Source of the DNA: Bacillota bacterium
Lineage (GTDB): Bacteria > Bacillota > Dethiobacteria > DTU022
Reading direction: 5' to 3'
Length of the DNA stretch: 64,000 nucleotides
Assembly: GCA_019428945.1 (NCBI GenBank)
Contig: JAHYJM010000006.1
Span: 1-64,000 of the forward strand
Both the position numbers and the translations under genes were made by a program. Shown here one piece after another: positions 2,410 to 36,872 of the stretch. Within the stretch, counting starts at the first letter, position 1, and each line of letters begins with the position of its first letter. Below the pieces are notes generated by a model. That model did not search any database. It had not been told where the DNA came from and saw nothing but the letters and a program-made list of their open reading frames with translations.

Positions 2410-3618
2410 TCAGGCATGCTTTGCTGTATATACTGTGGGGATCACTGCATACATGGCCGCTGCTTTTACCAGTTCCTTTTTCCATGTTTTTTCGTTTGGA
2501 GCATGGGCCTGATCTTCATGCCCCGGCCCGAACCCGACACATGGAATACCGTGCAGGCCCATAATTGAAACTCCGTTTGTCGAAAATGTCCACCTGTCAA
2601 CCAGTGGTTCTATCCTGAAAAGCCCGCTGTATGAGTCTACCAGTGTCTTCGTTGCCGGATGATCTTTTTCGATCAGCCAGGCCGGAAAATAAGATTCCAT
2701 CGGGTAAACCAGCCCTGTATAAGAAGGGCTTTCATATTTGTAGATTTCCACCCTGGCATCGGCCTCTTTAACAGCCGGCAGGTTCCTGATCTGCAATAAA
2801 GCATCTTCAGCAGTTTCTCCCATGGTCAGCCTGCGATCTACGGATATTGAGCAGCCGTCAGCAACAGCACAGCGGGATGGTGAGGTAAAGAAAATCTCCG
2901 AGACAGTAAGGGATCCTCTACCGAGAAATGGATGGTCTCCCAAATTTTCATTCAGAGCCCTCAGCTCAATCAGGATTGGAGCCATCTTATATATTGCGTT
3001 GTCGCCTCTTTCGGGAGCAGATCCATGGCAGCTTAATCCTTTCACAGAAACTTTAATCTCCATCCTGCCCCTCTGCCCGAGGTAAACATTACATGATGTC
3101 GGTTCAGTCAGAACTACCAGTTCCGGTCTGATGTTACCTTCATTGATCATATACTGCCAGCAAAGGCCGTCACAATCTTCTTCCTGAACCGTGCCGGTCA
3201 CCAGCAGGGTATAGTCGCCTTCCAAGCCCAAATCTTTAATTATTTTGGCTCCATAAACCAGGGCAGCCATACCGCCCAACTGATCGGAAGCGCCCCGGCC
3301 GACAATGATCTCGTCATCTTCATATCCTTTAAGCGGATCAAAATCCCATGAGTCGGGATCTCCAACACCTACGTTATCTATATGGGCATCCATTGCCACC
3401 AGGTGTTTTCCCCGGCCTATATAGCCCAGAACGTTACCCATGGGATCAATTTCTACCTTGTCAAAACCAACATTTTCCATTTCCTGCCTGATCCTGATTA
3501 CCCTTTGTTCCTCCCGGCCGCTTTCAGCCGGTATGGCAATCATCTCCCTTAAAAACCCTGAGATCTCTTCATTATAATTTTCTGCAGCGGATAAAACCCG
3601 CCTGAAATCAAGATCCAC
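2410..3618 (-). CDS. ygeY: YgeY-type M20 metallohydrolase
   Basis: M20/ArgE/DapE-family zinc hydrolase of 402 residues, almost the same length as E. coli YgeY. Metal and catalytic motifs are in order: MDAHIDNVG (H and D), [10 protein letters not shown] (bridging D), QEEDCDG (general-base E and metal E) and LTEPT. The start is GTG preceded by AAGGAGGCTTAAGAAA. The family cleaves amide or ureido bonds. In the purine cluster it acts between YgeW and diaminopropionate ammonia-lyase, probably deacylating a 2,3-diaminopropionate derivative. It sits 32 bases upstream of ygeW in the same operon. The role in the pathway is known for the cluster; the exact substrate is inferred. Confidence 0.88.
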
Positions 3619-3702: not shown

Positions 3703-5028
3703 TTATATGATACCAGTCCTCTCACGCAGCTTGCCGATTAAATAGTTACACTTACTGACAACCCGATCCTGTTCAATCGTTTTCAGGCTGCGCCTTTCCA
3801 TTAAAATCTGCCCGTCAACCATGGTCATGTCAACATCTGAACTCTTGAGAGAATATACCAGCAGAGAATAGGGATCTGCTGCAGATACAGGGTTTGTATG
3901 CATGCCGTCCAGTGATATGAGAACCAAATCAGCTTTCTTGCCCACTTCAATCGAACCAATCTCATTTTCGAGCCCCATCGCTTCAGCTCCGCCCAGGGTA
4001 GCCATTCTAAACACTTCCCTGGCCGGCATTACCGTCGGTCCGTGCAGTGGTTTTTGGATCAGCGCTGCCATCCTCATCTCCTGGAAAATATCCATGTTGT
4101 TATTGCATGGCGCCCCGTCTGAGCCGAGAGAAACTGAGATGCCCTGCTCAAGCATTTTCGGAACAGGTGCTATACCGGAAGCCAGTTTTACATTGCTGCC
4201 CGGGCAGTGTGCCACTTTTACCTGTCTTGCTTTCAGCACAGCTAATTCTTCATCGTCAATCCAGATACTGTGAGCCAAAATAAGGTCGGGTGAGGCAAGA
4301 CCGAGATGATCAAGATAGTGAATATTTTTCATTCCCTTCAGGCTCTCAACCAGCTTAATCTCTGATCTGTTTTCAGAGGCGTGGGTATGAATTTTTACTC
4401 CGTACTTGGCGCTTAAAATAACTACTTCTTTTAGCAGGTTTTCACTGCAGGACAGCACAAAACGGGGGGTAAAAGCATACTGGATTCTGCCCTGTTCACT
4501 GCAATGCCATTTTTCAAGCAGTTCGACACTTTCACTAAGCGATTTATCGGTACTTTCCTGCAGCGTTACGGGAATATCATCTCCGCTATCCATCATCACC
4601 TTGCCGCTTATGGCTCTAATACCACTTTCCCTGATCGCTTCCAGGGCAGCGTCAGCGTGATGAACTGTTTCCATATCAACAACCGCTGTGGTTCCGCCCA
4701 GGATCAGTTCACCAAGACCAAGCAGCGCTGAATAGTAAACCGTCTCCTGATCATGTGCGCCTTCCAGCGGCCAAATTCTCTCTTTCAGCCATGTTAAAAG
4801 TTCAAGGTCATCTGCCTGGCCGCGAAATATAGCCTGGGGTAGATGGATATGCGTCTGAACGAGGCCTGGTATAAGCAGCTTCCCCGAGCCATTTATAACC
4901 TGATCGGCCCAGGGTTCATCACTGCCAATGTAGACAATTCTGTCTGCTTCAATTAGCACGTTTCCCTGCTCCAATGCCCCGGAGTTATTCATGGTAACAA
5001 TTAATGCTTCTTTAATCAGGGTTTTCAA
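3703..5028 (-). CDS. Amidohydrolase, purine/aminohydrolase (guanine deaminase or ATZ/TRZ-like)
   Basis: Amidohydrolase of 441 residues in the ATZ/TRZ and nucleobase deaminase group. Motifs are QTHIHLPQAIFRG (HxH metal site), IHTHASE, LAHSIW and SLGSDGAPC (metal D). The start is a TTG whose last two bases begin the TGA stop of xdhC (TTGA overlap), with GGAGG upstream. It lies between ygeY and the XdhC-type subunit, so deamination of guanine, an 8-oxopurine or a related ring is the likely job. Guanine deaminase, deoxyadenosine deaminase and N-ethylammeline chlorohydrolase-like enzymes all share these motifs, so the substrate stays open. It is distinct from the SsnA-type paralogue three genes upstream. 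Confidence 0.82.
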   Translation of the reverse strand: MKTLIKEALIVTMNNSGALEQGNVLIEADRIVYIGSDEPWADQVINGSGKLLIPGLVQTHIHLPQAIFRGQADDLELLTWLKERIWPLEGAHDQETVYYSALLGLGELILGGTTAVVDMETVHHADAALEAIRESGIRAISGKVMMDSGDDIPVTLQESTDKSLSESVELLEKWHCSEQGRIQYAFTPRFVLSCSENLLKEVVILSAKYGVKIHTHASENRSEIKLVESLKGMKNIHYLDHLGLASPDLILAHSIWIDDEELAVLKARQVKVAHCPGSNVKLASGIAPVPKMLEQGISVSLGSDGAPCNNNMDIFQEMRMAALIQKPLHGPTVMPAREVFRMATLGGAEAMGLENEIGSIEVGKKADLVLISLDGMHTNPVSAADPYSLLVYSLKSSDVDMTMVDGQILMERRSLKTIEQDRVVSKCNYLIGKLRERTGII

Positions 5029-5516
5029 GTATGATCGCCTCCGGTTCCGGCGGTTTCATTTTCCAGTGACTTTTTAACTGCCTTAATTATATTCTGGTAA
5101 CCGGTGCAGCGGCAGAAGTGCCCCGCGAGCTCTTCTTTAACCTCAATATCTGTTAAGCTGTGTCCTCTGGACTGCAGAGCCGAGGCTGTAATGACAAACC
5201 CCGGGGTACAAAAACCGCACTGCACAGCCCCCTCGCTGATAAAGGCCTTTTGTACTTTCGACAGCTCACCGTCTTTAGCTAACCCTTCAACAGTGACAAT
5301 TTCCCTGCCGTCTGCCCAGACTCCGAGGTAGAGGCATGAATTAATTGCAGTCCCATCAATAAGCACTGTACATGCGCCACATTCTCCAACGCCACAGCCT
5401 TCCTTGGTTCCGGTTAGATGCAGCCTCTTTCGTATTATTTCCAGGAGGGTCTCACCGGCATTAATTTCAAGCTCTCTTTTTTTACCGTTCACGGTAAAGT
5501 TTATTTTTTTAATCAT
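5025..5516 (-). CDS. xdhC: Molybdenum hydroxylase small [2Fe-2S] subunit (XdhC/CoxS-like)
   Basis: Iron-sulfur subunit of 163 residues with the two expected domains. The N-terminal plant-type ferredoxin fold has GCGVGECGACTVLIDG plus a later NSCLY cysteine. The C-terminal helical domain has QCGFCTPGF and HFCRCTGYQ, binding the second [2Fe-2S] cluster next to the molybdopterin. It overlaps xdhB by 8 bases and the downstream amidohydrolase by 4 bases, so the genes are translationally coupled. It passes electrons from the XdhA-type Mo subunit to the XdhB-type flavin subunit. Naming follows E. coli xdhABC, where the small Fe-S subunit is XdhC; this is not the XdhC/CoxI insertase family. Confidence 0.92.
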   Translation of the reverse strand: MIKKINFTVNGKKRELEINAGETLLEIIRKRLHLTGTKEGCGVGECGACTVLIDGTAINSCLYLGVWADGREIVTVEGLAKDGELSKVQKAFISEGAVQCGFCTPGFVITASALQSRGHSLTDIEVKEELAGHFCRCTGYQNIIKAVKKSLENETAGTGGDHT

Positions 5517-6393
5517 AACTTATCCCTCCCGCCCTGTTACATGCACTTTTTAAAGCTCTTTGGGTTAGCTCCACGACAAGGTGTTCCCTGAATTCTTTGG
5601 ATGCCCGCTGTGAATCCCTGGCCCTAGATGACTTTACTGCGAGTCTGCCGATTTCTGCTATAATCGAATCATTTACCGGTTTACCAGGCGGAAAATTTTC
5701 AGCTATTTCGCAGCGGAGAGGGGTGGGACCGGCAACACCCAGGGCTATGCGGACCAGGTCAAAAATACCAGTTACCCTTATTCGACAGGTAACAGCAACC
5801 CCCAATATGGCCAGATCCATGGCTTTACGCGGGGCAAACTTGATGTAACAGCCTCCAAAGTTAAGATAATCTTCCTTCGAAATAAGAATTTCTGTCAGCA
5901 GTTCTCCCGGGCGCAGATCTACTTTTCCGGGCCTCAGGTAAAATTCCTGAAGGGGAGCCAAACGCACTCCGCTTTTACTCAACAGCTTTAACCGGGCATT
6001 AAGAACAAGCAGCGCGGGAGCGCTGTCTGCCGATGGCATCCCATTGCACAGATTGCCTCCCACAGTAGCCATTTCGCGAATTTGAGGGCCACCCACAGTC
6101 ATAGCTGCCTCAGCCATGATAGGAATATTATTCTGCACAAGTTCACTGCGTACCAGATCGTTAAAAGTGGCCATCGCCCCGATGCTGATTACGTTTTGTT
6201 CATCTTTCTCAATTTTTCGCAGAGGTTCGATCCTGCGGATACCGACCATTTGTACGTTTTCCAAAATGCCATCGCGCATCTTGATTAGCAGATCCGTTCC
6301 TCCTGCGATGATCAGCCTTTCCGGGTTATCCGCCAGCAGATTAACCGCTTCATCTACTGAGTCGGCCTCGATATAATCGTCAATCAGGTACAA
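5509..6393 (-). CDS. xdhB: Molybdenum hydroxylase FAD-binding subunit (XdhB/CoxM-like)
   Basis: FAD subunit of the CoxM/XdhB type. The motif IIAGGTDLL binds FAD near the N-terminus, and TVGGNLCNGMPSADSAPALL is the second FAD-binding signature. The ORF track start at 6444 would overlap xdhA by 65 bases. The TTG at 6393, eight bases after an AGGGGGTGATC ribosome site, gives MYLIDDYIEADSV and a 14-base overlap, which is more plausible; about 294 residues result. The protein takes electrons from the [2Fe-2S] subunit and reduces NAD+ or another carrier. It is the middle gene of the xdhA-xdhB-xdhC set. Confidence 0.9.
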   Translation of the reverse strand: MYLIDDYIEADSVDEAVNLLADNPERLIIAGGTDLLIKMRDGILENVQMVGIRRIEPLRKIEKDEQNVISIGAMATFNDLVRSELVQNNIPIMAEAAMTVGGPQIREMATVGGNLCNGMPSADSAPALLVLNARLKLLSKSGVRLAPLQEFYLRPGKVDLRPGELLTEILISKEDYLNFGGCYIKFAPRKAMDLAILGVAVTCRIRVTGIFDLVRIALGVAGPTPLRCEIAENFPPGKPVNDSIIAEIGRLAVKSSRARDSQRASKEFREHLVVELTQRALKSACNRAGGISYD

Positions 6394-8713
6394 CCTGATC
6401 ACCCCCTTCGAGCAGGCCTGCAGCTTTAAATTTTTCAAAAGCAAGCTGCGGCCTGATCGGAATCCGGTTTATAGCCACCCCGGTTGCATCAAACACTGCA
6501 TTGCGTATAGCCGGCGCCGGAGAAATCGTGGGCGGCTCACCCAGTGCCTTATTACCGTATGGTCCTGTCGGCTCAAAGGTTTCAATAAAATCAAGCCCTA
6601 TAACAGGGGTATCAAGAATTGTTGGCAACTTGTAATCGAGCAGGTTATTATTCAGAGGCTTTCCGGTTTTATTGTCAAACAGCAGCTCTTCGCTTAAGGC
6701 ATAGCCGAGAGCCATGCTGACAGCGCCATGAACCTGCCCTTCAGCGAGCTGGCGGTTAATTATTTTTCCGGAGTCATGAACATTGAATATTTCGATAATC
6801 TCGATTTGTCCGGTTTTTATGTCAACTTCCACTTCGACAAAAGTAGTTCCGAAAGAGATGGCATTTACCCGGGCGTTATTTGAAATATCTGCAGTGATCG
6901 GTTCTGAATTCTGGCGGTCGTAATAGCTCTGGAGGGCAACTGCAGCTACCGGCATTATAATGCTTCCGGAATCTTTTAATATAATATTGGCATCGGCAAT
7001 CTCGAGGCAGTCGGCCGGTAAATCGCTAATCCTGCGGGCAAATTCGAGAATCTTATTTTTTACCTCACCTGCTGCTTTCCTGATTGCCATACCCGTTATA
7101 TAGGTTTGTCTTGAAGCGTAGCTGCCGGTGTCAAAAGGGCTGATATCAGTGTCCTGAGTGGAAACAACATTAACCATCCCCATGGGAATACCCATCGTTT
7201 CGGCGGCCATCTGGGCAAATACAGTATCACTGCCCTGCCCTATTTCAGTGGCGCCAATTTGAAGTTGAACAGAACCGTCCTGATTGAGGATAATCCTCGC
7301 CCCGGCAACCTCAAGTCCGGCAGGATAGGTGCCGGTACCGTAGCTGAAGCAGGCCATTCCCAGACCCCGCTTTTTATGGCTTCCCCGCTCATTTTTCTCC
7401 TTAAATGACTGTCTTTTCTTATCCCAGTCGATCAGTTCCTTCCCCCGCTCTACACATTCACGGACTCCGCAGCTTAAGATTTGATTGCCCGTGTTGGGAT
7501 CTTTGTAACCGACCCGGTTAAAATTCTTCAGGCGCAGTTCAACTGGATCGATATCGAGTTTAACTGCAATATTATCGAGATGAGATTCCAGGGCAAAAGC
7601 TATCTGCGGCGACCCGTACGCCCTCATGGCGCCTGCCACCGGCAGGTTTGTATAAACAGTGCGGGGCATATACCGGATTGCATCGAAGTTATATAGGTAT
7701 TTAAATTTTGACCCGCCTGCCAGCATTACCGAATGACCATGAGAAGCGTAAGCGCCTGTGTTGGAAACAGCGTCAACCTGAATAGCAAGCAGTTTACCCT
7801 CATTGCTCACCGCTGTCTTTAGTTTTAACTTCACGCTATGGCGGGTTCTGGTGCCAATCATGTATTCCTCCCTGGTCAGTTCCAACTTAACCGGACGGCC
7901 GCCAACTGCCATGGTCATGGCGGCATTCAGTGGTTCCAGGCAGACATCCTGTTTTCCGCCAAACCCGCCACCAACATATGGTTTTATTATTCTAATTCTC
8001 CCCCATGGCAGTCCAAGAGCCTGCCCCACAATACGGCGGGCAATGTGGGGGATCTGGGTGGAAGAAACAATCACAATTCTCTCGTCTTCATCAATGTAGG
8101 CATATGAGACGTGGTTTTCCAGGGCGCAGTGCTGCACTATACCGGTTTCAAATTCATCGCTGAAAATAAAATCTGCCTGCTGCATTACACTGTCTATGTC
8201 ACCAACATGATATCCTGCAGAACCGGCAATATTGCTGCCCCGCTCATCGTGAACCAGGGGAGCTCCTTCACGTAGGGCTGCTTCGGTTGACAGAAGAGCT
8301 TCCAGCATTTCGTATTCAACCTTGATCAGTTTTAATGCCCTGGCTGCTGTTATTTCATCCACGGCAACTACGGCCGCGATTTCATCTCCAACAAAGCGGG
8401 CTTTTGAGGTAAGAATCGTTTTATCGGCCACATCACCACGTTCAGGGTCGAGTGAATGAGGATGCCCGGCAGTGGCATAAATATTTCCCGGCACATTTTC
8501 ATGAGTTAATACTGCCTCGACACCTGGCAGAGCTTCAGCTTCGGATGTTTCAATATTTATTACCCTGGCATGCGCATAAGGGCTGCGAAGGATTTTACCG
8601 ACAAGCATATCGGCAAGAAAATAATCCCCCGTATATTTTGCCTTTCCAGTTACCTTTGCCATGGCATCGAGCCTTGGCAGACTTGCACCAATAATACCGC
8701 TGGCCATCTTCAT
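6380..8713 (-). CDS. xdhA: Molybdenum hydroxylase catalytic subunit (xanthine dehydrogenase-like, XdhA)
   Basis: Molybdopterin-binding large subunit of 777 residues, close to the 752 of E. coli XdhA. Visible motifs: YTGDY (start of the aldehyde oxidase a/b hammerhead), VGGGFGGKQD, MRAYGSPQ (the arginine-bearing loop of the AFRGFG class), EIGQGSDTV and ALGEPPTISPAPA (catalytic glutamate). Two ATGs lie six bases apart after GAGGGAGG; either is possible. With the following XdhB and XdhC subunits it forms the usual three-subunit hydroxylase, likely acting on hypoxanthine, xanthine or a related purine. Whether it is a selenium-dependent enzyme cannot be read from the sequence. Confidence 0.9.
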   Translation of the reverse strand: MKMASGIIGASLPRLDAMAKVTGKAKYTGDYFLADMLVGKILRSPYAHARVINIETSEAEALPGVEAVLTHENVPGNIYATAGHPHSLDPERGDVADKTILTSKARFVGDEIAAVVAVDEITAARALKLIKVEYEMLEALLSTEAALREGAPLVHDERGSNIAGSAGYHVGDIDSVMQQADFIFSDEFETGIVQHCALENHVSYAYIDEDERIVIVSSTQIPHIARRIVGQALGLPWGRIRIIKPYVGGGFGGKQDVCLEPLNAAMTMAVGGRPVKLELTREEYMIGTRTRHSVKLKLKTAVSNEGKLLAIQVDAVSNTGAYASHGHSVMLAGGSKFKYLYNFDAIRYMPRTVYTNLPVAGAMRAYGSPQIAFALESHLDNIAVKLDIDPVELRLKNFNRVGYKDPNTGNQILSCGVRECVERGKELIDWDKKRQSFKEKNERGSHKKRGLGMACFSYGTGTYPAGLEVAGARIILNQDGSVQLQIGATEIGQGSDTVFAQMAAETMGIPMGMVNVVSTQDTDISPFDTGSYASRQTYITGMAIRKAAGEVKNKILEFARRISDLPADCLEIADANIILKDSGSIIMPVAAVALQSYYDRQNSEPITADISNNARVNAISFGTTFVEVEVDIKTGQIEIIEIFNVHDSGKIINRQLAEGQVHGAVSMALGYALSEELLFDNKTGKPLNNNLLDYKLPTILDTPVIGLDFIETFEPTGPYGNKALGEPPTISPAPAIRNAVFDATGVAINRIPIRPQLAFEKFKAAGLLEGGDQVVPD

Positions 8714-8725
8714 CAGGCCTCCCTC

Positions 8726-10054
8726 TTAAAAACGCTCCCATAACTTTACCGCCAGTTCCCTGGCTTTCGCTTTAACTTCCTGTTCATTTATCTCTGTTAA
8801 AACCCGGTTTTGCATCAATATTTTTCCGGCCACGATGGTGGTCTCAACCGCTCTGCCCGTTACCCCGAAAACCAGATGACCGTAATAGTTTTCTGCTGTA
8901 AGGGGGGTGGGGGGATCGTAATCGATCACAATTACATCAGCCGGAGCTCCGGGCGCCAACTCGTTTAACCCGGAAATGAAATAGTTGGACATTATACGCG
9001 CATTGTTTTCAAACTGCATCCGGGGAACTTCTTTCCAACCAGCCCTGGGATCATTGTTACAAAACTTGTGCAAAATATGAGCTGTTTTTAAACCCTCCAG
9101 CATATCAGCGCTCATTCCGTCTGTTCCCATGCCGACAACAACACCGGCAGCAAGCATTTTATTAACCGGAGCGCACCCAACGGCATTGTTCATATTTGAC
9201 TGGGGATTATGGGCAACATTGGTCTGAGACGCAGCCAGAAGCTCTATTTCCCGATCACTGACGTGAACGCAATGAGCGGTCATGCTTTTATCGCCAAGCA
9301 GACCATACTTATCTAACCGCTCAATTACCCCCATACCGTATTTATCAAGGCTGTCATCCACATCTTCGCGACTTTCTGCAGCGTGTATATGAACTCCGGC
9401 TCCCAAATCGTTTACTGTCCGGGCACACTTCTCCATCGTTTTAGTTCCGATTGTAAAAGAGGCATGCATGCCAAATGATGCCGTTAACATAGAAGATTTT
9501 TCGTCGCTGCATTTTTTTATAAAAGCGGCGTTTTCCTCAAGACCCCCCAGCATTTTGGCTTCACCATCCCTGTCGCTCACCTCATAACATAGATTCGCCC
9601 GGATCCCGGCCATGCGGGCGGCCGAGGCGATCAATTCCAGGCTGCCTTCTATGGCATTGGGACCGGCATGGTGATCGAGCAAAGCTGTAGTACCATTTTT
9701 TACAGAATCTATAAAAGTGACCAGGGCGCTGTAGAAAATATCTTCGTTGGAAAGGGCCTGATCAAGCCGCCACCATAACCGCTCTAAGATCTGGGGAAAA
9801 TTAACAGGAGCATCATCTTTAAGGGCCATCCCCCGGGCAAAGGCACTGTAGGTGTGTGTATGGGCGCAGGTAAAACCGGGCATAATCAGCCTGCCGCGGC
9901 AGTCAATAAAGTCAGCATCCGGGGCGACAGCCTGCAGATTTGCTGTTTCACCGATAGTAGAAATCTTTTCTCCCTCAATTAAAAGAGCTCCATCTTCTAT
10001 CACACGGCACTTGCTGCCCAAAGTTAAAAGTCTTCCATTTCCTAATATCAGCAT
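8726..10054 (-). CDS. ssnA: SsnA-type aminohydrolase
   Basis: Amidohydrolase of 442 residues, the same length as E. coli SsnA. The metal motif AHTHTYSAFARGM, then VHIHAAES, TAHCVH and GMGTDGMS, give the metal and catalytic residues and match the SsnA subfamily. The gene lies between the XdhD-like protein, whose TGA ends four bases upstream of the ATG, and xdhA, separated by 12 bases. In the purine/uric acid clusters ssnA accompanies ygfK and xdhD; its chemical step is thought to be hydrolytic ring opening or deamination, but is less firmly assigned than that of dpaL. The two other amidohydrolases of the operon have different motif contexts. Confidence 0.88.
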   Translation of the reverse strand: MLILGNGRLLTLGSKCRVIEDGALLIEGEKISTIGETANLQAVAPDADFIDCRGRLIMPGFTCAHTHTYSAFARGMALKDDAPVNFPQILERLWWRLDQALSNEDIFYSALVTFIDSVKNGTTALLDHHAGPNAIEGSLELIASAARMAGIRANLCYEVSDRDGEAKMLGGLEENAAFIKKCSDEKSSMLTASFGMHASFTIGTKTMEKCARTVNDLGAGVHIHAAESREDVDDSLDKYGMGVIERLDKYGLLGDKSMTAHCVHVSDREIELLAASQTNVAHNPQSNMNNAVGCAPVNKMLAAGVVVGMGTDGMSADMLEGLKTAHILHKFCNNDPRAGWKEVPRMQFENNARIMSNYFISGLNELAPGAPADVIVIDYDPPTPLTAENYYGHLVFGVTGRAVETTIVAGKILMQNRVLTEINEQEVKAKARELAVKLWERF

Positions 10055-10058
10055 AATA

Positions 10059-12869
10059 TCATTCCCCGTTTTTTTTGCTGAGAGCTTCTGTTATCTTTGC
10101 CGGCGTAGCCGGTAGATCACAGATTCGAACCCCCACGGCATCATAGATAGCGTTGATGATAGCCGGGGCAGTCGGGTTAAGGGGCAGTTCACCCATTCCC
10201 TTAGCCCCGTAAGGCCCTTCAGATGGTTCTTCTACCAGAATAATCTCCGTATCCGGATAATCCGTAATCTTTGGCAGTTTCAGTTTGGACAAACTGACTG
10301 AACTCACAACACCATTATCTATAACAAGTTCTTCACTTAAGCCATATCCCATCCCCATTACTATGGCCCCTTCCACCTGGCAGCAGCTATTTTGGTAATG
10401 TATCGCTTTCCCCAGGTCCTGGGCGGCAATAATTTTTATCACCTTTACATCCCCTGTTGCTTCATCCACCGCCACAACTGCCGCCTGGGCGGCATAGCAA
10501 TAGGCAAAGTGAATATCGTAGCCTTCAACAGGTACGCCTTCCTCCTGATCAGACCTTTCTCTTAAGGGATACGTTTTCGGAGCCTTATAAATAAACTCAC
10601 CAACCGGTAATAGCCCAGCTTTTTGAGCAGCCTTAGCTATTTCGGCATATGATACATACCTGCTTTCTCCATTTTTGTTTTTCATGAGCAAACCGCCACC
10701 TGCAGGCTTGTATCCCTCTTCGCCAGGGTTATAAAGCTGATCAAGGCAGCGATTAAGGGCGTTCTTAAATTCAAGGGCCGCTCCCACTACCGCGTGCCCG
10801 GAAATATAAGTTTGACGCGATGCTGTGGTAACCCCGCCTTCGGGAGTCTGGGCGGTATCATTGGAGATTACTAAAAAATCATCATAATCAAGGCCTGTTG
10901 CGCTGGCGGCTATCTGGGCCAGTGCAGTATCTGAGCCCTGCCCCATATCGGCAGCGCCAACTTTGAGCAGCAGTTTGCCCTGTGGGTTGAGTTCTATCCT
11001 TGCGCCTGCCTGATCAATTTTACCGGCTCCCAGCCCTACATTTTTATAAGCACCGGCCACACCGATGCCGATCTTCTTTCCGGGAAGCGAGGGAGGCAGC
11101 TCTTTTAAATAAGCTTTTAGCGACTGTTCCACCTCTGCCAGTGCTTTCTGGTAACCGCAATCATTTTTAACAACCTGCCCGGTAATAGTTCTTTTTCCCG
11201 GTGCCAGGCCGTTGATTTTTCTTATTTCAAAAGAATCCATTCCTAAAACGCGGGCCAGTTTATCTACCTGCATCTCCGACCCAAATGCAACCTGGGTGGT
11301 GCCAAATCCCCTGAATGCGCCTGCCGGCGGGTGGTTGGTATATACACCGTAAGCATCTGTTTTTACATTGGGGATATCATAGGGGCCAGCCGTGATAATT
11401 CCGGCACGGAATACAACGGGCTTGCTCAAAGACTCGTAAGCGCCTGCATCAAGGATGACTTTGGCTTCCATTGCAATAATTTTACCCTCTGCGGTAGCCC
11501 CGTGGCGGTAAAACATTTTTGCACTATGCCTTTTGGTCGACATAATAATTGATTCGCGCCGCGATAAAACCATTTTTACCGGTCTGCCGGTAATCATCGC
11601 CCCCAGGGCACAGTGAATCTGAACTGTCGGTTCTTCCTTACCACCGAAAGCCCCACCGGCCGGAGTATAGACAACTCTTACCTTTTCCGGCGGCAGGTTT
11701 AAACTGGCGGCAATCATTTCCCGGAAGGCGTAAGAACCCTGGCTTGCTGTCCATATAGTGATAACCCCGTCTTGATCCGGCATCGCTACAGCTGCTTCAG
11801 GTTCAAGATATGCATGCTCAACCATGGGGGTTACATATTCGCCTTCCACAACTAGATCTGCTTTGGCAAAAGCTTTTTCTGTATCACCCCTGCGAACAGA
11901 AACATGATGGAGCAGGTTTCCTTCAGGATGAATAAACGGAGCATCGGCTTTCAGGCCATCTACTGCCGAAAATATGCCCGGCAGTGGTTCATAATCAACT
12001 TCAATAGATGAAAGAGCATTGAGAGCCTCTGCTTCACTCTCAGCTAAAATTACAGCTACAGGTTCGCCAATATACCTGACCCGCTCAGCGGCAAGAACAG
12101 GCTGGTGAGGATTAAGCAGGCCAAAAGTTTTACGACCCGGGATATCACGTGCTGTTAGAACTTTAACCACCCCTGGTTGAGTTAGCGCCTGCTTAAAGTT
12201 TATTTTTTTTATCATTGCAGATGGAAACCGGCTGAAGAGGAGCTTGCCGTAAAGCATATTTTCAAATTTAAGATCATCAGCAAACACAGGAGCGCCGGTT
12301 ACTTTCAGTCTGGCATCTTTTTTAAGCGGAGAAGAACCGATCTGCACATCCTCCGGACTGAAGTCTGCCCTGCCGGTCATTTCCCCGGCGGCAGAGTTTT
12401 CGCCCTTCAGAGCTGCAGCAGCGCTCTGCACAGCCCTTACAATTGCCGCATAGCCTGTACAGCGGCAAATGTTGTGACGAAGAGCCTTTTTTATATCCCC
12501 GGGAGTGGGGTTTGGGTTGGTATCGAGCAGCGCTTTAGCAGCCATGATCATGCCAGGGGTGCAGAAGCCACATTGAACGGCTCCTTCTTTCATAAAAGCA
12601 TCCTGCAGAGGATGAAGCTGATCTTTTGCAGACAGGGATTCTATTGTCTCAACTTTTGATCCATCCAGCCCGGATACCATGACTGTGCAGGCCCTCTTTG
12701 CCATGCCATCAATAATTACCGTGCAGCTGCCGCAATGCCCCTGGTTGCAGCCATTTTTTGCGCCAAAAAAGCCCAGACAGTCCCTCAGATAGGATAGTAG
12801 GGATAACCTGCCGGGCTTACGGATCTCTACAGTATTTCCATTAACCTTAAAGGAGACAATGTCTGCCAT
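10059..12869 (-). CDS. xdhD: Fused [2Fe-2S]/molybdopterin hydroxylase, XdhD-like
   Basis: Fusion of a small Fe-S subunit and a Mo catalytic subunit, about 936 residues. Residues 1-160 hold GCNQGHCGSCTVIIDG, QCGFCTPGM and NICRCTGY. Residues from about 180 onward form the Mo domain with GGAFGGKEEP, AFRGFGTTQ, DMGQGSDTAL and GMGELPLNPTAP. This architecture is that of XdhD, annotated as selenate reductase or selenium-dependent hydroxylase in purine clusters. The track start is a GTG (12878), but AGGTGGATCTG precedes the ATG at 12869, which is preferred. It is the first gene of the nine-gene minus operon and has no separate FAD subunit next to it, so it may share XdhB or use YgfK as partner. Confidence 0.88.
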   Translation of the reverse strand: MADIVSFKVNGNTVEIRKPGRLSLLSYLRDCLGFFGAKNGCNQGHCGSCTVIIDGMAKRACTVMVSGLDGSKVETIESLSAKDQLHPLQDAFMKEGAVQCGFCTPGMIMAAKALLDTNPNPTPGDIKKALRHNICRCTGYAAIVRAVQSAAAALKGENSAAGEMTGRADFSPEDVQIGSSPLKKDARLKVTGAPVFADDLKFENMLYGKLLFSRFPSAMIKKINFKQALTQPGVVKVLTARDIPGRKTFGLLNPHQPVLAAERVRYIGEPVAVILAESEAEALNALSSIEVDYEPLPGIFSAVDGLKADAPFIHPEGNLLHHVSVRRGDTEKAFAKADLVVEGEYVTPMVEHAYLEPEAAVAMPDQDGVITIWTASQGSYAFREMIAASLNLPPEKVRVVYTPAGGAFGGKEEPTVQIHCALGAMITGRPVKMVLSRRESIIMSTKRHSAKMFYRHGATAEGKIIAMEAKVILDAGAYESLSKPVVFRAGIITAGPYDIPNVKTDAYGVYTNHPPAGAFRGFGTTQVAFGSEMQVDKLARVLGMDSFEIRKINGLAPGKRTITGQVVKNDCGYQKALAEVEQSLKAYLKELPPSLPGKKIGIGVAGAYKNVGLGAGKIDQAGARIELNPQGKLLLKVGAADMGQGSDTALAQIAASATGLDYDDFLVISNDTAQTPEGGVTTASRQTYISGHAVVGAALEFKNALNRCLDQLYNPGEEGYKPAGGGLLMKNKNGESRYVSYAEIAKAAQKAGLLPVGEFIYKAPKTYPLRERSDQEEGVPVEGYDIHFAYCYAAQAAVVAVDEATGDVKVIKIIAAQDLGKAIHYQNSCCQVEGAIVMGMGYGLSEELVIDNGVVSSVSLSKLKLPKITDYPDTEIILVEEPSEGPYGAKGMGELPLNPTAPAIINAIYDAVGVRICDLPATPAKITEALSKKNGE

Positions 12870-13165
12870 CAGATCCACCTCAAAGAAACTTATTCAAAAA
12901 AAGGCCCTCTGAGCCTTGATCATTATTTCGGGGATCGATTCTATGCTGCTTACTGCTGTAATGACAGAAATGCCTGTTTAATCAAAGAATTAATATAATT
13001 ATTAATATGTTTTCCATAAATTATGGCAAAATCCTGCCTCAGCTTAAAATTACTGTTTTAATCCTGCTGCCACACCGGCAGGATATTTTGGGAACCAATA
13101 GAATTAAGCCTTTAGCAGTTATTGATCAGGCGCGCTCTAATTTATCCTGGCGAGGAGGCCCTAAA
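12870..13165. promoter_or_regulatory. Divergent control region between the xdhD operon and ygfK-dpaL, with inverted repeats
   Basis: This 296-base stretch separates two divergent purine operons, so both promoters must lie here. It holds an AT-rich block near 12985-13010. A perfect 9-base inverted repeat, ATCCTGCTG (13061-13069) and CGGCAGGAT (13076-13084), has a 6-base loop. A further copy ATCCTGCC at 13031-13038 is also perfectly complementary to GGCAGGAT at 13077-13084. The alternating arms could form an operator or an attenuator-like pair. The ORF track extends ygfK through this region, but the AGGAGG at 13153 argues that it is untranslated. No clear -35/-10 pair was found. Confidence 0.45.
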
Positions 13166-14893
13166 ATGAGCGACCGCATGAGAGTAATCCCCTTTGACAA
13201 ACTGGTAAACTGGATCATTGAAGAATATCGGCAGGAAGATACGATCTTCGGGATATCGGCAAAAGACTTTTACCCTGAAACAACTGATAATATGTCTTAT
13301 TGCGGAGAACAGTTAAACCGTCCTCTTGGACCTGCAGCCGGTCCTCATACCCAACTTGCCCAGAATCTTGCCGCCTCCTACCTGACCGGGGGCAGGTTTT
13401 TTGAATTAAAAACTGTCCAGATTCTTGACAGACTCACATTTCCCAAACCGTGCATAAACGCTGCCGATGAATGCTACAACACCGAGTGGTCGACAGAACT
13501 ATCCATCGAGGAAGCTTACGCAGAATATGTCAAGGGATGGTTTCTGCTGCATCTTCTCGGCAGAGAGTTTTTTAACTTAAAACAGCGCAATTTTATATTT
13601 AACATGAGCGTCGGCTATGATCTGGCCGGAATTAAATCTGAAAAGGTTAACTGCTTTATTGAGGGAATGAAAGATGCATCAACTGCTGAAATCTTTACAG
13701 GGTGCAGAACTGTAATAAAACAAGCAACAGAACGGTTTAATAATATTGATGAAAATTATATTGACAAGATATCACCATTCATATGTAATTCTATCGCACT
13801 TTCTACCATGCATGGCTGCCCGCATGACGAAATTGAAGCAATATGCAAATACCTGATTCTTGAAAAAAAGCTGCATACTCACGTTAAGCTAAACCCTACC
13901 CTGCTCGGTTACGACTACGTCAGAAATACACTTGACCAGATGGGTTACGACTACATAAAACTAAGTGAAAAGACCTTTACCGACGACCTCAGCTATGAAG
14001 AAGGAATACCCATGCTTCAAAGGCTTATTGCACTTGCCGGGAAATGCGGCATTGAGTTCGGTGTAAAACTTTCCAACACTCTGCCTGTATTGATCAACAG
14101 AGACGAGCTGCCGGGTGACCAGATGTACCTGTCAGGCAAGCCCCTCTATGCACTGACAATCAACCTGGCCTATAAGCTGGCTGCTGAATTTGATGGCAAA
14201 TTAAATATTTCATACTCCGGCGGAGCAGATCGAAATAATACGGCCAAAATCTATGCCACCGGTATAAAGCCGATTACAGTAGTTACTACCCTTTTAAAAC
14301 CTGGCGGTTACGCCCGTTTAACAAAACTGGCCGGAATAATAGAACCTGGATTAAAACGCGAATTCTCAAGGATTAATTTGGCCGCCCTGAAAAACCTTTC
14401 CCATGAATCTCTTGTCGAGACTACCTACCAGAAAAAGAAAAAAACAGGCGGCTCTTTAAAAGCTTACAGACAGCTGCCTCTTTTCGACTGCAGAGAATCG
14501 TGTAGTATTTGCGTTTCAGTATGTCCCAATCGTGCCAATATCCAGGTTGAAACTGCAGGTCACAGTTATAAATACAGCCGACAGATAATGCACTTGGACG
14601 GTATGTGCAATGAATGTGGTAACTGTGCCACTTTTTGCCCCTTTGGAGGAATACCATACCGCGAAAAACCGACTCTGTTCTGGTTTGAGGAAGATTTTAC
14701 AGATAGTAAAAACGGAGGCTTTCAGCTGATTACAGCAACACCTACCCCTATCTTCAGGATCAGGTCAAACAATGAAATTTTTGAAATCGGTTTAAGCGCT
14801 TTAAACAGTGATACGGTTCAGGCTGCCAGGCTTCCTCTTTTGACAATGATCAAGATCGTTTATGAACACTATCGACACACCTTCCTGAGCTGA
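13166..14893 (+). CDS. ygfK: YgfK-like protein lacking the central flavin oxidoreductase module
   Basis: Start ATG 13166 follows CGAGGAGGCCCTAAA and gives 575 residues; the track start at 13007 has no ribosome site. Residues 1 to about 436 match the dihydropyrimidine/dihydroorotate dehydrogenase-like N-terminal part of YgfK (motifs PAAGPHTQLAQN, ELKTVQILDRL, TMHGCPHDEIEAI). Residues 437-575 match its C-terminal ferredoxin part: CRESCSICVSVCP (C-x3-C-x2-C-x3-CP) and CNECGNCATFCP. E. coli YgfK, from memory about 1030 residues, has a GltD-like FAD/NAD(P)H domain of about 440 residues between these parts; here it is absent without a frameshift. YgfK accompanies XdhD in purine/urate degradation, probably as an electron-transfer reductase. 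A separate flavoprotein may be needed. Confidence 0.85.
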   Translation: MSDRMRVIPFDKLVNWIIEEYRQEDTIFGISAKDFYPETTDNMSYCGEQLNRPLGPAAGPHTQLAQNLAASYLTGGRFFELKTVQILDRLTFPKPCINAADECYNTEWSTELSIEEAYAEYVKGWFLLHLLGREFFNLKQRNFIFNMSVGYDLAGIKSEKVNCFIEGMKDASTAEIFTGCRTVIKQATERFNNIDENYIDKISPFICNSIALSTMHGCPHDEIEAICKYLILEKKLHTHVKLNPTLLGYDYVRNTLDQMGYDYIKLSEKTFTDDLSYEEGIPMLQRLIALAGKCGIEFGVKLSNTLPVLINRDELPGDQMYLSGKPLYALTINLAYKLAAEFDGKLNISYSGGADRNNTAKIYATGIKPITVVTTLLKPGGYARLTKLAGIIEPGLKREFSRINLAALKNLSHESLVETTYQKKKKTGGSLKAYRQLPLFDCRESCSICVSVCPNRANIQVETAGHSYKYSRQIMHLDGMCNECGNCATFCPFGGIPYREKPTLFWFEEDFTDSKNGGFQLITATPTPIFRIRSNNEIFEIGLSALNSDTVQAARLPLLTMIKIVYEHYRHTFLS

Positions 14894-14914: not shown

Positions 14915-16153
14915 ATGGAAGAAAGCATTAAATGGATTGTCAACCCGAAAGCGCGAAATGAAGATAATATAAAAAGGCCCGGTCCCGATTTCCTGGGTGG
15001 AAAAGCAGCAGCTGAAACTCGTAACTTCATGGAAAGTTTTCCACAGTATGAAGTGACTCCTCTCCGGAACCTGGGCAGACTGGCCGCTTATACCGGAATA
15101 GCAGGAATCTATGTTAAAGATGAATCATACCGTTTCGGTTTGAACTCATTTAAAGTTTTAGGCGGGGGGCATGCCATCGGCAGGTACCTTGCCGGCAAAC
15201 TAAATCTTAGCCCCCTAAATTTTTCATATGCTAAGCTGAGGTCAGACGAAGCCCGGGAAAAGCTGGGCGAAATTACATTTACATCAGCGACCGATGGAAA
15301 TCATGGCCGGGGGGTGGCATGGGCTGCCCGCCAGCTTGGCCACAGGGCAGTTATTAATATGCCCAAAGGATCATCGCCCATTCGATTGGAACATATTACA
15401 GCAACAGGCGCCGAAGGTTACATAACTGATGTTAACTACGATGAAACAGTTAGGATTACAGCAGAAAACGCCAACAAAAACGGGTGGGTTGTAATTCAGG
15501 ATACAGCCTGGGAAGGTTATGAAGATATACCAAATTGGATTATACAGGGTTATACAGTGATGGCAGACGAAGCGTATAAACAGATTCAGCAATATGGCTT
15601 TAACAGGCCAACTCATATTTTTATCCAGGCTGGAGTAGGTTCGCTGGCAGCAGCAGTGCTGGGTTTCTTTGCATCAATGTTCAATAATATCAGGCCTGTT
15701 ACGGTTATCGTTGAACCGGATAAGGCCGACTGTTTTTACAAATCTGCGCTGGCAGGTGACGGAATACCCAGATATGTTACCGGTGATCTTGATACAATTA
15801 TGGCCGGCCTGGCCTGCGGGGAACCGAACCCCTTTGCCTGGGACATTTTAAAGGATATGGCCGATATGTTCATCTCATGCCCTGATTACATATCTGCAAA
15901 GGGCATGAGAATACTGGGTAACCCCTTAAGCGGCGATACCAGGGTGATTTCCGGTGAATCTGGCGCAGTGACCACAGGCATGCTTGTCGAACTGCTTCTA
16001 AATGAAGAACTGGCTGAAGCGAGAGAAGGGCTAAAACTTGATCAGGATTCCAGGGTTTTGGTTTTCAGCACCGAAGGGGATACTGACCCGGAAATGTACA
16101 GAAAAATAGTCTGGGACGGAGCTTATCCTGTTCCGGGCAAGTCACATATTTAA
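14915..16153 (+). CDS. dpaL: Diaminopropionate ammonia-lyase
   Basis: PLP fold-type II lyase of 412 residues, close to the 398 of E. coli YgeX/DpaL. It converts 2,3-diaminopropionate to pyruvate and two ammonia. Visible motifs: SFKVLGG with the Schiff-base lysine at residue 80, TDGNHGRGVAWAA (the acid residue of the D-isomer reaction), DTAWEGYEDIP (second catalytic aspartate) and QAGVGSLAAAV (phosphate/PLP cradle). AAGGAGGCCAACAGT precedes the ATG. It follows ygfK by 21 bases. In the uric acid pathway it delivers pyruvate at the end, so it is the best functional marker of the whole cluster. Confidence 0.93.
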   Translation: MEESIKWIVNPKARNEDNIKRPGPDFLGGKAAAETRNFMESFPQYEVTPLRNLGRLAAYTGIAGIYVKDESYRFGLNSFKVLGGGHAIGRYLAGKLNLSPLNFSYAKLRSDEAREKLGEITFTSATDGNHGRGVAWAARQLGHRAVINMPKGSSPIRLEHITATGAEGYITDVNYDETVRITAENANKNGWVVIQDTAWEGYEDIPNWIIQGYTVMADEAYKQIQQYGFNRPTHIFIQAGVGSLAAAVLGFFASMFNNIRPVTVIVEPDKADCFYKSALAGDGIPRYVTGDLDTIMAGLACGEPNPFAWDILKDMADMFISCPDYISAKGMRILGNPLSGDTRVISGESGAVTTGMLVELLLNEELAEAREGLKLDQDSRVLVFSTEGDTDPEMYRKIVWDGAYPVPGKSHI

Positions 16154-18702: not shown

Positions 18703-18761
18703 CTTATCATCATCCACTATACAACCAGATGCCGGTAAGGATAAATTACAGAGGTGATAAA

Positions 18762-19619
18762 ATGTATCCTAATCAATTTCGCAAACTGCTATCAATCATC
18801 ATTGCTCTCTTTATATTTATAACTGTAATATTTCTTTCCGGCTGCAGCTTTTTTGAAGGCTATGTCAAATATGACGGCGGTAAGTATAAAGGTGATTTGG
18901 TTGATGGCATACCACATGGTACAGGAAAATGGATCGGTCCAGATGGAACAATTTACGAAGGGCAGCTCATAGATGGCGCTGCAGGGGGAACAGGTAAACT
19001 CACATTCCCTGACGGGCGTATCTATGAAGGGGATTTTTCTGATGGACTTCCTCATGGCAAGGGGATTGAAACCCTTCCAGATGGTGAAATCTATGAAGGC
19101 GAATGGGAAAATGGGTTGCGTCACGGCATGGGATCATATTCATTTGATGGCACTCGATATGAAGGTGAATTCATAAATGGGGTGCCAACCGGTACTGGAA
19201 AAGTTACTTTACCTGACGGAATAGTTTATATTGGCGAAGTGAAAGGCTATGTATCGCATGGAACCGGTAAAATGACATGGCCCGATGGCAGGGTTTATGA
19301 AGGTGAATGGAAAGATGGCAGCAGGGAAGGTTATGGAGTGTTAACTTTCCCCAACGGCACCCGGTATGAAGGAGAATTTGAAAATGGAGTTCCTCACGGC
19401 AGCGGAACAGAAACCTGGGTCGATGGCAGTGAATATGTCGGCGAATGGAAGGATGGGCTCAGGCACGGTATTGGAATATACACCTGGCCCGATGGTTCTG
19501 TATATGAAGGGGAATGGGCAGACGGAGACATGCACGGCCTGGCAACTTACACCGAAGCCGATGGTACCGTAAAATCGGGAGTGTGGATTAATAATGAATA
19601 CCAGGAGCAGGAAGAGTAA
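18762..19619 (+). CDS. MORN-repeat lipoprotein
   Basis: The ATG at 18762 follows GAGGTGATAAA; the track start 33 bases upstream lacks a ribosome site. The 285-residue protein has a lipoprotein signal (hydrophobic FIFITVIFLSGC lipobox, Cys about residue 27). Ten tandem MORN repeats of about 23 residues follow, each built on a core like PDGxxYEGEWxxGxxHGxG. It should be anchored to the outer face of the membrane. MORN repeats form elongated beta-hairpin rods that often bind lipids or act as scaffolds; no enzyme domain is fused here. Its neighbours, ilvE and the baeRF gene, give no clue. Function unknown. Confidence 0.88.
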   Translation: MYPNQFRKLLSIIIALFIFITVIFLSGCSFFEGYVKYDGGKYKGDLVDGIPHGTGKWIGPDGTIYEGQLIDGAAGGTGKLTFPDGRIYEGDFSDGLPHGKGIETLPDGEIYEGEWENGLRHGMGSYSFDGTRYEGEFINGVPTGTGKVTLPDGIVYIGEVKGYVSHGTGKMTWPDGRVYEGEWKDGSREGYGVLTFPNGTRYEGEFENGVPHGSGTETWVDGSEYVGEWKDGLRHGIGIYTWPDGSVYEGEWADGDMHGLATYTEADGTVKSGVWINNEYQEQEE

Positions 19620-31490: not shown

Positions 31491-32807
31491 TTATTCAAAA
31501 ATTGTCTGGCCTTCAACCTCTGTTTGCAAAGCTTTTAAAGCTTTCTCCACAAGTGCTCGTCTTAACAGCTTCTCCTCATCACACGGCAATTCAGGGTTGC
31601 CAAGCGGGTGGGGAATTGCTACAGCGGGGACGATCCTGTTCGCTCCGACTGTCAGGGAGATAGGAACGACTGTGCACATATGGACCACCGGTAAACCGGC
31701 TTTTTCAATTTCTTTAACCATCGCTGCACCGCAGCGAGTACAAGTTCCTCACGTTGAGGTGAGAATGACGGCATCTACACCTGCCGCCTTAAGATCGGCA
31801 GCAATAGCGGCACCGTATTTGGCGGCATTTGCAACTGAAGTACCGTTACCGACAGTGGCATAGTGGTAAGGGTGAAGTTCACCGATAACACCCTCTTTAA
31901 CCAGATCCCGAACCACATCTAAAGGCAGAACACGATCGGGATCCTGGTTGGCATAGACCGGGTCGTAACCGCCGTGAGCGGTTTCGTGTGTTTCAGAAGT
32001 TAAATCGCTTAAACCTTCCAAACTATACTTGCCATATTTTGAAGCGCTGGAAGATTCGATCCGATCGGGATTACCTTTTGGAACAATACCACCCGATGTA
32101 ACCAGGGCAATCTTCGCTTTACTTAAATTCTCCAGAGGTGGATTGGGAGTAACACGATCAAAATCAGGCATTGGCAGTTCAGTAGTAAACGGTTCGCCTT
32201 TAAGTTTAGCTAATAGCATATTCACAGCGCGTTTTGCTCCATTTTCCTCAGCAAACGAGTTAAAGCGAATGCCTCTCGGCAGATAACCCTCCTCTTCGGG
32301 GGAACCGACTTTTTCTTGCCTAATCAGTTTCATCAGCAGCTTTACCATTACCCCTACTGCATCTTTCATTCCCCTGGCTGAATCTTCTGTGGCAATGATA
32401 TAAATATCTTTCCGGTACAGTTCTGCACCCGGGTTCTCCACATACATACCCGTGATTACAGGCATTCCCAGTTCCCGGGCTGCCGCCTGGCCAACTATTC
32501 CGCAGGCTACTCCGTAGCGGCCGGCATTAAAAGCCGGACCGGCCACCAATGCATCAGCGTTCTGCTCACTGATCAGGGCCAAGATTTCCCTGCTTGCCTG
32601 TTCAAGGTTATCAGCCACATAATTATCACCACATATAATTGTAGCCACTACCTCTGCCGAATTTCCCAAGGCCTGCTGAAGAGCAAGGCCGGGTCCCACC
32701 GGGCCGGGCTGCACCCTGGGCGTGGTTCCGGCCATTTCTTCACCACCAATTTGACCAAAAAACTGGTTCAGGTAATGGACTATCCGCAGTTTTCCATTTG
32801 ACGTCAT
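31491..32807 (-). CDS. grdB: Glycine reductase complex component B, selenocysteine subunit (GrdB)
   Basis: Selenoprotein of about 438 residues, split in the ORF track into 31749-32912 and 31491-31721. The in-frame UGA (31749-31751) encodes Sec at about residue 353 in ILTSTUGTCTRCGAAM, the GrdB active-site UxxCxxC. The downstream frame continues MVKEIEKAGLPVVHMCTVVP, as in the family. Start ATG 32807 follows AGAGGAGGTTTATT; the 35 extra residues of the track are not translated. Component B binds glycine through the pyruvoyl group of GrdE and passes a carboxymethyl group to the GrdA selenol. Sarcosine (GrdF) and betaine (GrdH) versions are close relatives; the glycine riboswitch favours glycine. 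Confidence 0.95.
31721..31737 (-). promoter_or_regulatory. SECIS-like stem-loop of grdB
   Basis: Starting 11 bases after the UGA, TCGCTGC and GCAGCGA form a perfect 7-bp stem closed by a GGT loop. Position, stem and a loop with G and U fit a bacterial SECIS element read by SelB. Confidence 0.75.
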
Positions 32808-32841
32808 AATAAACCTCCTCTCCAAGCTGGTCTGCTCAACT

Positions 32842-34128
32842 TTAAAAGCCTTCTCCCCTGAGTTTGCTGAAACCGAGTTCATTGGTCGAACCGGTAATAG
32901 CCTGAATTTCAACTTTTATGCTGCCGTCAGCATGCAGGGCACCGGAAAAACCTCCGGCAATTATCTCGGCTGTTTTCAGATTACCGATAACTTTCTTGCA
33001 AGCCGGAAGCTCTATTACTTCGTTGGCATTACCCACACTGATCACAGCGTCAGCCAGGGTTGTGGCATCAGCCAGCGACTGCGAAGCCCCATCGCGCCCG
33101 GCATACTCATCGGTGATCAAAACCGTCTTGATCCCCATTTCCTCAAGCTTTTGACAATTCATAATCAGATCGGTATCAGGGTTACCGAATCCTTCTTCCG
33201 AGACTATTGCGCCTTCAGCGCCAATCATTTTAACCAACTTGGCAGCATAATCTGATGACCGAATCTTATCAGCCAGGGTTACATTTTCATTACTGATCAC
33301 CACGCCATGAAAGCACAGCTCTTTACCGTGCTGAAGCAGCAGTTCCCTGATCACCGGATTATTTTGATGATGATATGTGGTATTTTTATCGCAGGCTGAC
33401 ACGCAGTTACCGCTGACAATAGCGCCATCCATAACCTCTGTCGGGCTGATCAGGCTGGGCAGAATCTTTTTGGCATCGACCCCATAAACATAAGTATCGT
33501 GCAGGAGCCCCTGGGTTTGCAACATATATAGATAGGCCACTTTCGGCAGGGTCGGATATTGGACCGCATTCTCCGCGAAGTTTCCCAGTTCAAATATTTC
33601 CACCTGATCTGGAGTCAGGTCAACTGCTGCAGAGCCAAGATAGGCGGCCGCTTTTAAACCAACCATTCTTACTGCATGTTCATGTTTGTGCTGAGGTAAC
33701 CCCTCCAACGGGGTAATTGATACAACCAGGTTAAGGGTTTTCGAAAAGGGAGTATAATCGGCGCCGGGTCCGCTCATATCAATGATCCCTTCCTGAAAAC
33801 CAACAATGTCACCCGTAGTGACCACTGCCATACCGGAGAGAACATGGGTGCGACCACTGCCGACCGTTTCAACCTTACTGATGAAGCCGGGGAATACCCC
33901 TCCCGGACCTTCAACTTTACAGCGTGGCTCAATAACATCTTTGACCGGTATAATCCGGACATCTTCTCCGGGTTTGGCCAAGTCAAGATCAACCCCGACC
34001 AGGTTGGGATCATCGGCCAGTAAAACTTTTAATTCAGCATCGTTGATCACTAAAACCCCCTGCTGAATCTCAGTTTTTTCGCCGAAGCGGATATCGGTTA
34101 TATTAATTCTTCCCAATTCCAAGCGCAA
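32842..34128 (-). CDS. grdE: Glycine reductase component B proprotein, pyruvoyl subunit precursor (GrdE)
   Basis: Protein of 428 residues, the usual GrdE/GrdG/GrdI length. The motif GAIVSGNCVSACDKNTTYHH contains Asn241-Cys242, the self-cleavage site that gives the alpha and beta chains and turns Cys242 into a pyruvoyl group. The pyruvoyl forms a Schiff base with the amino group of glycine. The start is TTG, seven bases after GAGGAGG. It is followed after 34 bases by grdB, its partner. The N-terminal RLELGRINITDIRFG and C-terminal STNELGFSKLRGEGF blocks agree with complete family members. Confidence 0.95.
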   Translation of the reverse strand: MRLELGRINITDIRFGEKTEIQQGVLVINDAELKVLLADDPNLVGVDLDLAKPGEDVRIIPVKDVIEPRCKVEGPGGVFPGFISKVETVGSGRTHVLSGMAVVTTGDIVGFQEGIIDMSGPGADYTPFSKTLNLVVSITPLEGLPQHKHEHAVRMVGLKAAAYLGSAAVDLTPDQVEIFELGNFAENAVQYPTLPKVAYLYMLQTQGLLHDTYVYGVDAKKILPSLISPTEVMDGAIVSGNCVSACDKNTTYHHQNNPVIRELLLQHGKELCFHGVVISNENVTLADKIRSSDYAAKLVKMIGAEGAIVSEEGFGNPDTDLIMNCQKLEEMGIKTVLITDEYAGRDGASQSLADATTLADAVISVGNANEVIELPACKKVIGNLKTAEIIAGGFSGALHADGSIKVEIQAITGSTNELGFSKLRGEGF

Positions 34129-36631: not shown

Positions 36632-36676
36632 AAAAAAACAAAAGACAGGGAAAGCCGACCGGCTTTTTTCCCTGTC
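36632..36676 (-). terminator. Riboswitch expression-platform terminator upstream of grdC
   Basis: On the minus strand GACAGGGAAA pairs with TTTCCCTGTC, with an inner AGCCG/CGGCT helix, followed by TTTTGTTTTTTT. The 5' arm overlaps the 3' end of the second glycine aptamer (CAGGGACAG), so ligand binding can compete with terminator formation. Confidence 0.85.
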
Positions 36677-36872
36677 CCTGATACCTGAGAGATTGCTCCC
36701 TTAGCAATTAAATTAAGAGGCTTTCCCCGTCGGTGCCCCGCTTAAACGGGCGCTCTCCAGAGGCGCGTCCCCCGGTGGTCCTGAAACCTGAGAGTTTCTC
36801 CCGCATCCGCCAAGCGCGGGATTTCTCCTTCGGCGTCCATTTAACCAGAACTCTCCCACAGGGTTCATTCGC
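36677..36872 (-). promoter_or_regulatory. Tandem glycine riboswitch
   Basis: Read on the minus strand, two aptamers follow each other. The first has GGGAGAG, ACGCCGAAGGAGAAA and AAACTCTCAGGT. The second has CTGGAGAG, CACCGACGGGGAAAGCC and AATCTCTCAGGT. These are the conserved cores of the glycine (gcvT) riboswitch. The tandem form and the downstream terminator indicate glycine-induced expression of grdC-grdA-grdX-grdE-grdB. Confidence 0.92.

Follow-up and report, generated by a model that had tools for sequence, protein, structure and literature searches.

Genes of the urate cluster

In the window (64,000 nt, positions 1 to 64,000 of contig JAHYJM010000006.1 of a Bacillota bacterium, assembly GCA_019428945.1), a short ygfK gene was identified within a reductive urate cluster, which also contained xdhD, ssnA, ygeY, ygeX, a carbamoyltransferase gene in the ygeW position and xdhABC. 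The short ygfK (13166-14893, + strand) was an open frame of 575 aa plus stop, with a Shine-Dalgarno-like GAGGAGG (13152-13158, +) 7 nt before its ATG as judged from the sequence. The diaminopropionate ammonia-lyase gene ygeX (14915-16153, +; TIGR03528, 602.7 bits, above cut-off) followed 21 nt downstream. Divergent from the short ygfK, on the minus strand, was an xdhD-like gene for a fused 2Fe-2S plus Mo reductase (10059-12878), whose best model, TIGR03311, scored under its cut-off, and next to it ssnA (8726-10054, -; TIGR03314, 580.9 bits, above cut-off).

A three-part xanthine dehydrogenase was also encoded on the minus strand, with an xdhA-like Mo subunit (6380-8713; NF007426, 1190 bits), an xdhB-like FAD subunit (5509-6444; NF007427, 368 bits) and an xdhC-like 2Fe-2S subunit (5025-5516), the last being an ORF 40% identical to the 2Fe-2S portion of xdhD in the window. 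The same strand carried ygeY (2410-3618; TIGR03526, 665 bits) and the carbamoyltransferase in the ygeW position (1394-2377), which was distant, with 34% identity to E. coli YgeW. A deaminase-like amidohydrolase was also in the cluster, and HyuA was found above its cut-off on another contig (C55).

Domain composition of the short YgfK

The short YgfK was composed of the FMN-barrel half of YgfK fused to the YgfK diferredoxin, with the join at residues 437-442. Its residues 2-442 matched positions 1-442 of the YgfK model TIGR03315 (1012 positions) with 790.7 bits, slightly below the whole-protein cut-off of 835.3 bits, and a second match lay at the C-terminus, so that both the YgfK-type N-terminal barrel and the C-terminal diferredoxin were present. 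Against E. coli YgfK, which has 1032 aa (the original prediction correctly gave about 1030), residues 1-459 aligned to 1-470 with 46% identity (E 3e-133) and residues 440-571 to 899-1025 with 36% identity (E 1e-25), with no aligned residues between the two blocks. Chance could be excluded as the origin of the domain match from these E-values and from 28 other short homologues. The part missing relative to the full-length protein was about 446 residues long and corresponded to the GltD-like Fe-S/FAD/NAD(P)H module; in E. coli YgfK this stretch carries Fer4_20 (453-532) and Pyr_redox_2 (552-839), and neither domain was matched when searched in the short YgfK. The direct joining of the outer parts near residue 437, in an open frame and with intact cysteine motifs, was thus just as predicted.

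The N-terminal half (residues 1-436; 13166-14473, +) was predicted to be an FMN-binding barrel of the dihydroorotate dehydrogenase (DHODH)/dihydropyrimidine dehydrogenase (DPD) type. It was followed by the join (residues 437-453, LPLFDCRESCSICVSVC; 14474-14524, +), at which full-length YgfK has about 446 residues between LPLxDC and the diferredoxin. LPLxDC is where the module starts in full-length relatives (LPLLDC, LPLTDC), and the join LPLFDC-RESCSIC (residues 437-449) lay at the same spot; because LPLxDC here meets the C-x3-C-x2-C-x3-CP of the diferredoxin, the cysteine could be assigned to either part. The diferredoxin (C442-C491; 14489-14638, +) kept both 4Fe-4S cysteine motifs, C442-x3-C446-x2-C449-x3-C453-P and C481-x2-C484-x2-C487-x3-C491, and the YgfK-specific tail (residues 492-575; 14639-14890, +) could be aligned with the E. 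coli YgfK C-terminus as far as residue 1025. A chimera with a foreign ferredoxin was considered and rejected, the diferredoxin plus tail being closest to those of YgfK, though this stretch is too short for fine placement.

Conservation of the short YgfK

The barrel kept 87 of its 88 near-invariant residues, defined as at least 97% constant among 86 full-length YgfKs, and the C-terminal part kept 27 of its 30, with all three exceptions at the join. The eight cluster cysteines did not vary when 7 and when 23 short forms were aligned. An AlphaFold model of the protein reached a mean pLDDT of 90.9 and a pTM of 0.93, and its best PDB folds in Foldseek were DPD and DHODH, in keeping with an FMN barrel; when a solved structure of the barrel was sought by sequence, ferredoxin domains were the only matches.

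A gene from a separate assembly (G028; same family, different genus) encoded a protein of 61% identity with the same kind of join, LPIFDCRDSC. Between the two genes, 361 differences were at third codon positions versus 163 and 124 at the others, an excess which points to purifying selection on the short ygfK; as dS was saturated for this pair, codon-position counts are given in place of a dN/dS ratio. The short YgfK is not a decayed copy, it is a genuine minimal YgfK.

Two residues differed between the forms. Residue 211 (13796-13798), just before the STMHGC motif, corresponds to T224 of E. coli YgfK, which is Thr in 86 of 86 full-length and both medium-length YgfKs and Ala in the short forms of the window, G028 and C. 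magnum; these Ala-bearing proteins represent two separate short lineages. C898 of E. coli YgfK (L009; RCLEC), near-invariant in full-length proteins and just before the diferredoxin, was gone in most short forms, and may belong with the clusters of the lost module.

Distribution of short forms and of other reductases

A scan of public genomes, from which the best 80 relatives were kept and pooled with other loci, gave at least 29 distinct complete short YgfKs of 539-601 aa, the window protein included, and no complete protein between 601 and 836 aa in this set. The minimal YgfK that had been predicted is therefore both genuine and recurrent, and the short homologues that had been suggested as a check, at about 560-600 aa, numbered at least 28 besides the window protein. 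Carriers included Clostridium magnum DSM 2767, Metaclostridioides mangenotii DSM 1289, Anaerocolumna aminovalerica DSM 1283, C. sartagoforme, C. gallinarum, Veillonella sp. R32 and a spirochaete, with C. magnum, Veillonella sp. R32 and A. aminovalerica among the isolates. The C. magnum short form passed the TIGR03315 cut-off with 877 bits.

In the genome of the window itself, no full-length or second YgfK was found, nor any UacX or PreA-type back-up reductase, with a single 315-aa DHODH-like protein present, so the short YgfK was the sole YgfK/UacX/PreA-type reductase. A full-length YgfK elsewhere together with a lack of short homologues had been named as the sign of decay, and what was found was the opposite on both counts.

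A census covered 89 genomes of the same phylum, with SsnA above cut-off in 87 and below it in two. Full-length YgfK was found in 41 (two also with PreA), an 836-aa YgfK in 2, short YgfK in 7, the UacX type in 15 and the PreA type in 17, of which 11 had an adjacent GltD-like gene; in the remaining 7 no reductase was found. Apart from the two genomes with PreA beside full-length YgfK, the reductase types did not co-occur, and short YgfK was never seen together with UacX or PreA near ssnA.

The 836-aa YgfKs (L049:8573-11080 and L050:8714-11284, minus strand) kept Fer4_20 and the FAD GxGxxG motif, had lost the NAD(P)H subdomain, and were nested among full-length proteins in the tree; they are possible intermediates between full-length and short YgfK. 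SsnA clusters with a PreA-type reductase and an adjacent GltD-like gene, and without YgfK, were also observed (L093, L101, L102, L105, L106, L109, L115 and others). This arrangement is a further form of likely yanthine reductase, one not named in the main text of PMC12507026.

Phylogeny of the short forms

An unrooted tree of 77 rows was built from the barrel only. The window protein and that of G028 were sisters (100/100) inside a full-length group (bootstrap 97 / SH-aLRT 93), a nesting which supports common descent of the short YgfK with full-length YgfK. At least four changes between short and full labels were needed, each forced by well supported branches, and still four after two long-branch rows were removed.

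That all short forms share one origin was rejected by the tree and by AU tests. Holding all short forms together was rejected (p-AU 6.6e-39), and so was a placement of the window pair (p-AU 2.6e-86) or of C. magnum (p-AU 7.1e-36) with the 25-member short clade, while for the spirochaete the rejection was weak (p-AU 0.012). The p-values for joining to the 25-member set are less clean, since that set was read off the tree, whereas the all-short test was grouped by architecture. As the tree is unrooted, the 25-member clade could be a loss or the ancestral state; for the three short cases nested inside full-length lineages, loss of the entire electron-input module is the best reading.

An FAD subunit of XdhD was seen in 5 of 24 short clusters and 17 of 32 full-length clusters, as raw counts within the stretches examined. 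Co-loss of this subunit with the YgfK module is not claimed, since only three independent pairs were available and these had no trend.

Comparison with known reductases

PreA, whose core is a barrel plus diferredoxin, receives NAD(P)H electrons from PreT. The full-length YgfK (E. coli b2878; TIGR03315) shares with the short form the barrel, the diferredoxin, the C-terminal tail and the position in urate clusters, whereas the Fer4_20, FAD and NAD(P)H domains are its own. UacX (C. difficile type, PF01180) likewise has a barrel plus diferredoxin without the FAD domain and occurs in urate clusters, and hhalign placed the short YgfK colinear with UacX/PreA through barrel and diferredoxin (99.1%, E 1.7e-18, 360 columns). 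From this colinear homology, YgfK may be viewed as this core plus an inserted GltD-like module. However, UacX is about 360 aa long against 575 aa, and UacX-type proteins match DHODH/PreA models while the short YgfK matches YgfK; no PF01180 DHO_dh domain was matched in it at E 0.01, and two other short forms matched this domain only weakly, below threshold. Unlike the short ygfK, the PreA-type gene often has a partner gene of GltD type beside it (11 of 19 clusters).

The ferredoxin-dependent dihydropyrimidine dehydrogenase PydAc of Clostridium chromiireducens has no FAD domain and reduces uracil with reduced ferredoxin or methyl viologen, not with NAD(P)H (PMC7332683). Like the short YgfK it is without FAD/NAD(P)H domains, but its substrate is uracil and it keeps an additional two-cluster 4Fe-4S domain (PMC7332683) which the short YgfK is without, so the electron path of the latter would be shorter than in this tested precedent. 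UacX is as short as the short YgfK in this respect, and its use of ferredoxin is a proposal (PMC12507026, main text). It was therefore an overstatement in the original prediction that the short form changes the cofactor logic, a layout without flavin module being already known for pyrimidine from PydAc and proposed for purine with UacX. The novelty is that YgfK itself arrives at the module-less layout, repeatedly and in unrelated bacteria.

In the main text of PMC12507026, from 2025, urate clusters are sorted only into YgfK, UacX or F420 type, and a commentary (PMC12990295) discusses a C. sporogenes study. Among the searchable papers, the supplements of PMC12507026 aside, no report of a short YgfK was found.

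Proposed electron route

In the pathway given in the main text of PMC12507026, XdhD converts urate to yanthine (2,8-dioxopurine), then YgfK with SsnA dearomatizes yanthine, and E. coli YgfK was shown there to use NAD(P)H directly. With no Fer4_20, FAD or NAD(P)H domain, the short YgfK should not do so. On domain content and analogy with characterized enzymes, we consider it likely that it is a yanthine reductase of the YgfK lineage cut to barrel plus diferredoxin, probably fed by ferredoxin; its FMN binding, substrate and donor are all inferred. Direct donation by ferredoxin is the best inference from the architecture, the PydAc precedent and the missing partner gene of GltD type. Pyruvate:ferredoxin oxidoreductase (PFOR) and two RnfC proteins are encoded in the genome, so reduced ferredoxin should be available.

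Reduced ferredoxin would come from PFOR or be exchanged via Rnf, and would dock close to the former site of the GltD-like module. Electrons would then travel singly along the C-terminal diferredoxin, by way of its two 4Fe-4S clusters, to the FMN of the barrel, and this FMN would reduce and dearomatize yanthine, the XdhD product of urate. SsnA would open the reduced product, and HyuA, the enzyme in the YgeW position, YgeY and YgeX could complete the route to pyruvate and ammonia.

A supply of the module in trans, with NAD(P)H electrons arriving through a separate flavoprotein as from PreT to PreA, or through the FAD subunit XdhB of the cluster, is unlikely yet the most serious of the alternatives. 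Besides the PreA/PreT precedent, GltD-like proteins exist elsewhere in the genome and xdhB lies about 7 kb from the short ygfK, both counterpoints to ferredoxin feeding, as is the finding that, with phylogeny taken into account, the YgfK module and the XdhD FAD subunit were not lost in step. However, no GltD-like gene adjoined the short ygfK as preT does preA, and 23 of the 24 short ygfK loci with enough flank had none within about 10 kb, the one exception being glutamate synthase. The stand-alone GltD-like gene and the separate flavoprotein donor suggested earlier accordingly had no dedicated candidate next door. The GltD-like proteins of the genome seem to serve other systems. One is fused to a NuoF-like subunit and occurs in relatives too, and another, which carries a diferredoxin as well and whose gene seems to be split by a contig break (C62/C63; L214, L215), lies between 2-oxoacid:ferredoxin oxidoreductase-like subunits. 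A search of the genome for stand-alone proteins of NfnB or PreT type found none, and many short clusters had no FAD subunit in the stretch examined.

Ferredoxin feeding would be kept with another substrate, such as xanthine, hypoxanthine or a different heterocycle, which the presence of xdhABC and the deaminase-like amidohydrolase in the cluster and the absence of ssnA near some short forms (L193, L197; within the stretches examined) might suggest. This is quite improbable, since ssnA, xdhD, ygeX and ygeY are all in the window, and the barrel is nearly intact in a protein nested among full-length YgfKs. For the urate/purine reduction originally proposed, yanthine is a better name for the substrate than urate because XdhD makes yanthine first. 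That the gene is inactive or in decay, or owes its shortness to an assembly deletion in a draft genome of 170 contigs, as a profile score slightly under the cut-off might hint, is hardly credible in view of the join in the separate G028 assembly, the short forms of isolates (among them C. magnum DSM 2767 and Veillonella sp. R32), the intact residues and the purifying selection.

For the family, we lean towards the reading that YgfK switched between full-length and module-less forms at least four times, three of these best read as losses, with each product a ferredoxin-fed yanthine reductase. If so, the module-free enzyme would be a recurrent outcome, parallel to yet separate from UacX and PydAc, and NAD(P)H dependence would not be a family property of YgfK. 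Database models file the short forms under NAD(P)H-dependent YgfK, and with ferredoxin feeding the cofactor would be mis-assigned for several cultured organisms (Veillonella, Clostridium, Anaerocolumna). Host urate is affected when anaerobes of gut and soil break urate down reductively, and the source of the electrons decides what the pathway costs in energy and where it can run. Recurrent loss of the module also amounts to a natural experiment, in which a multi-domain redox enzyme would drop its input module yet stay active.

Other features of the window

A putative lipoprotein of MORN-like repeats was recognized from its sequence at 18729-19619 (+). The gene at 31680-32912 (-) contained an in-frame TGA (LTSTUGTCTRCGA) followed directly by a SECIS_4 match (31711-31748, 57.5 bits), and probably encodes a selenoprotein subunit of a glycine/betaine reductase operon. 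Upstream of this operon, tandem glycine riboswitch aptamers were located at 36670-36868 (-).
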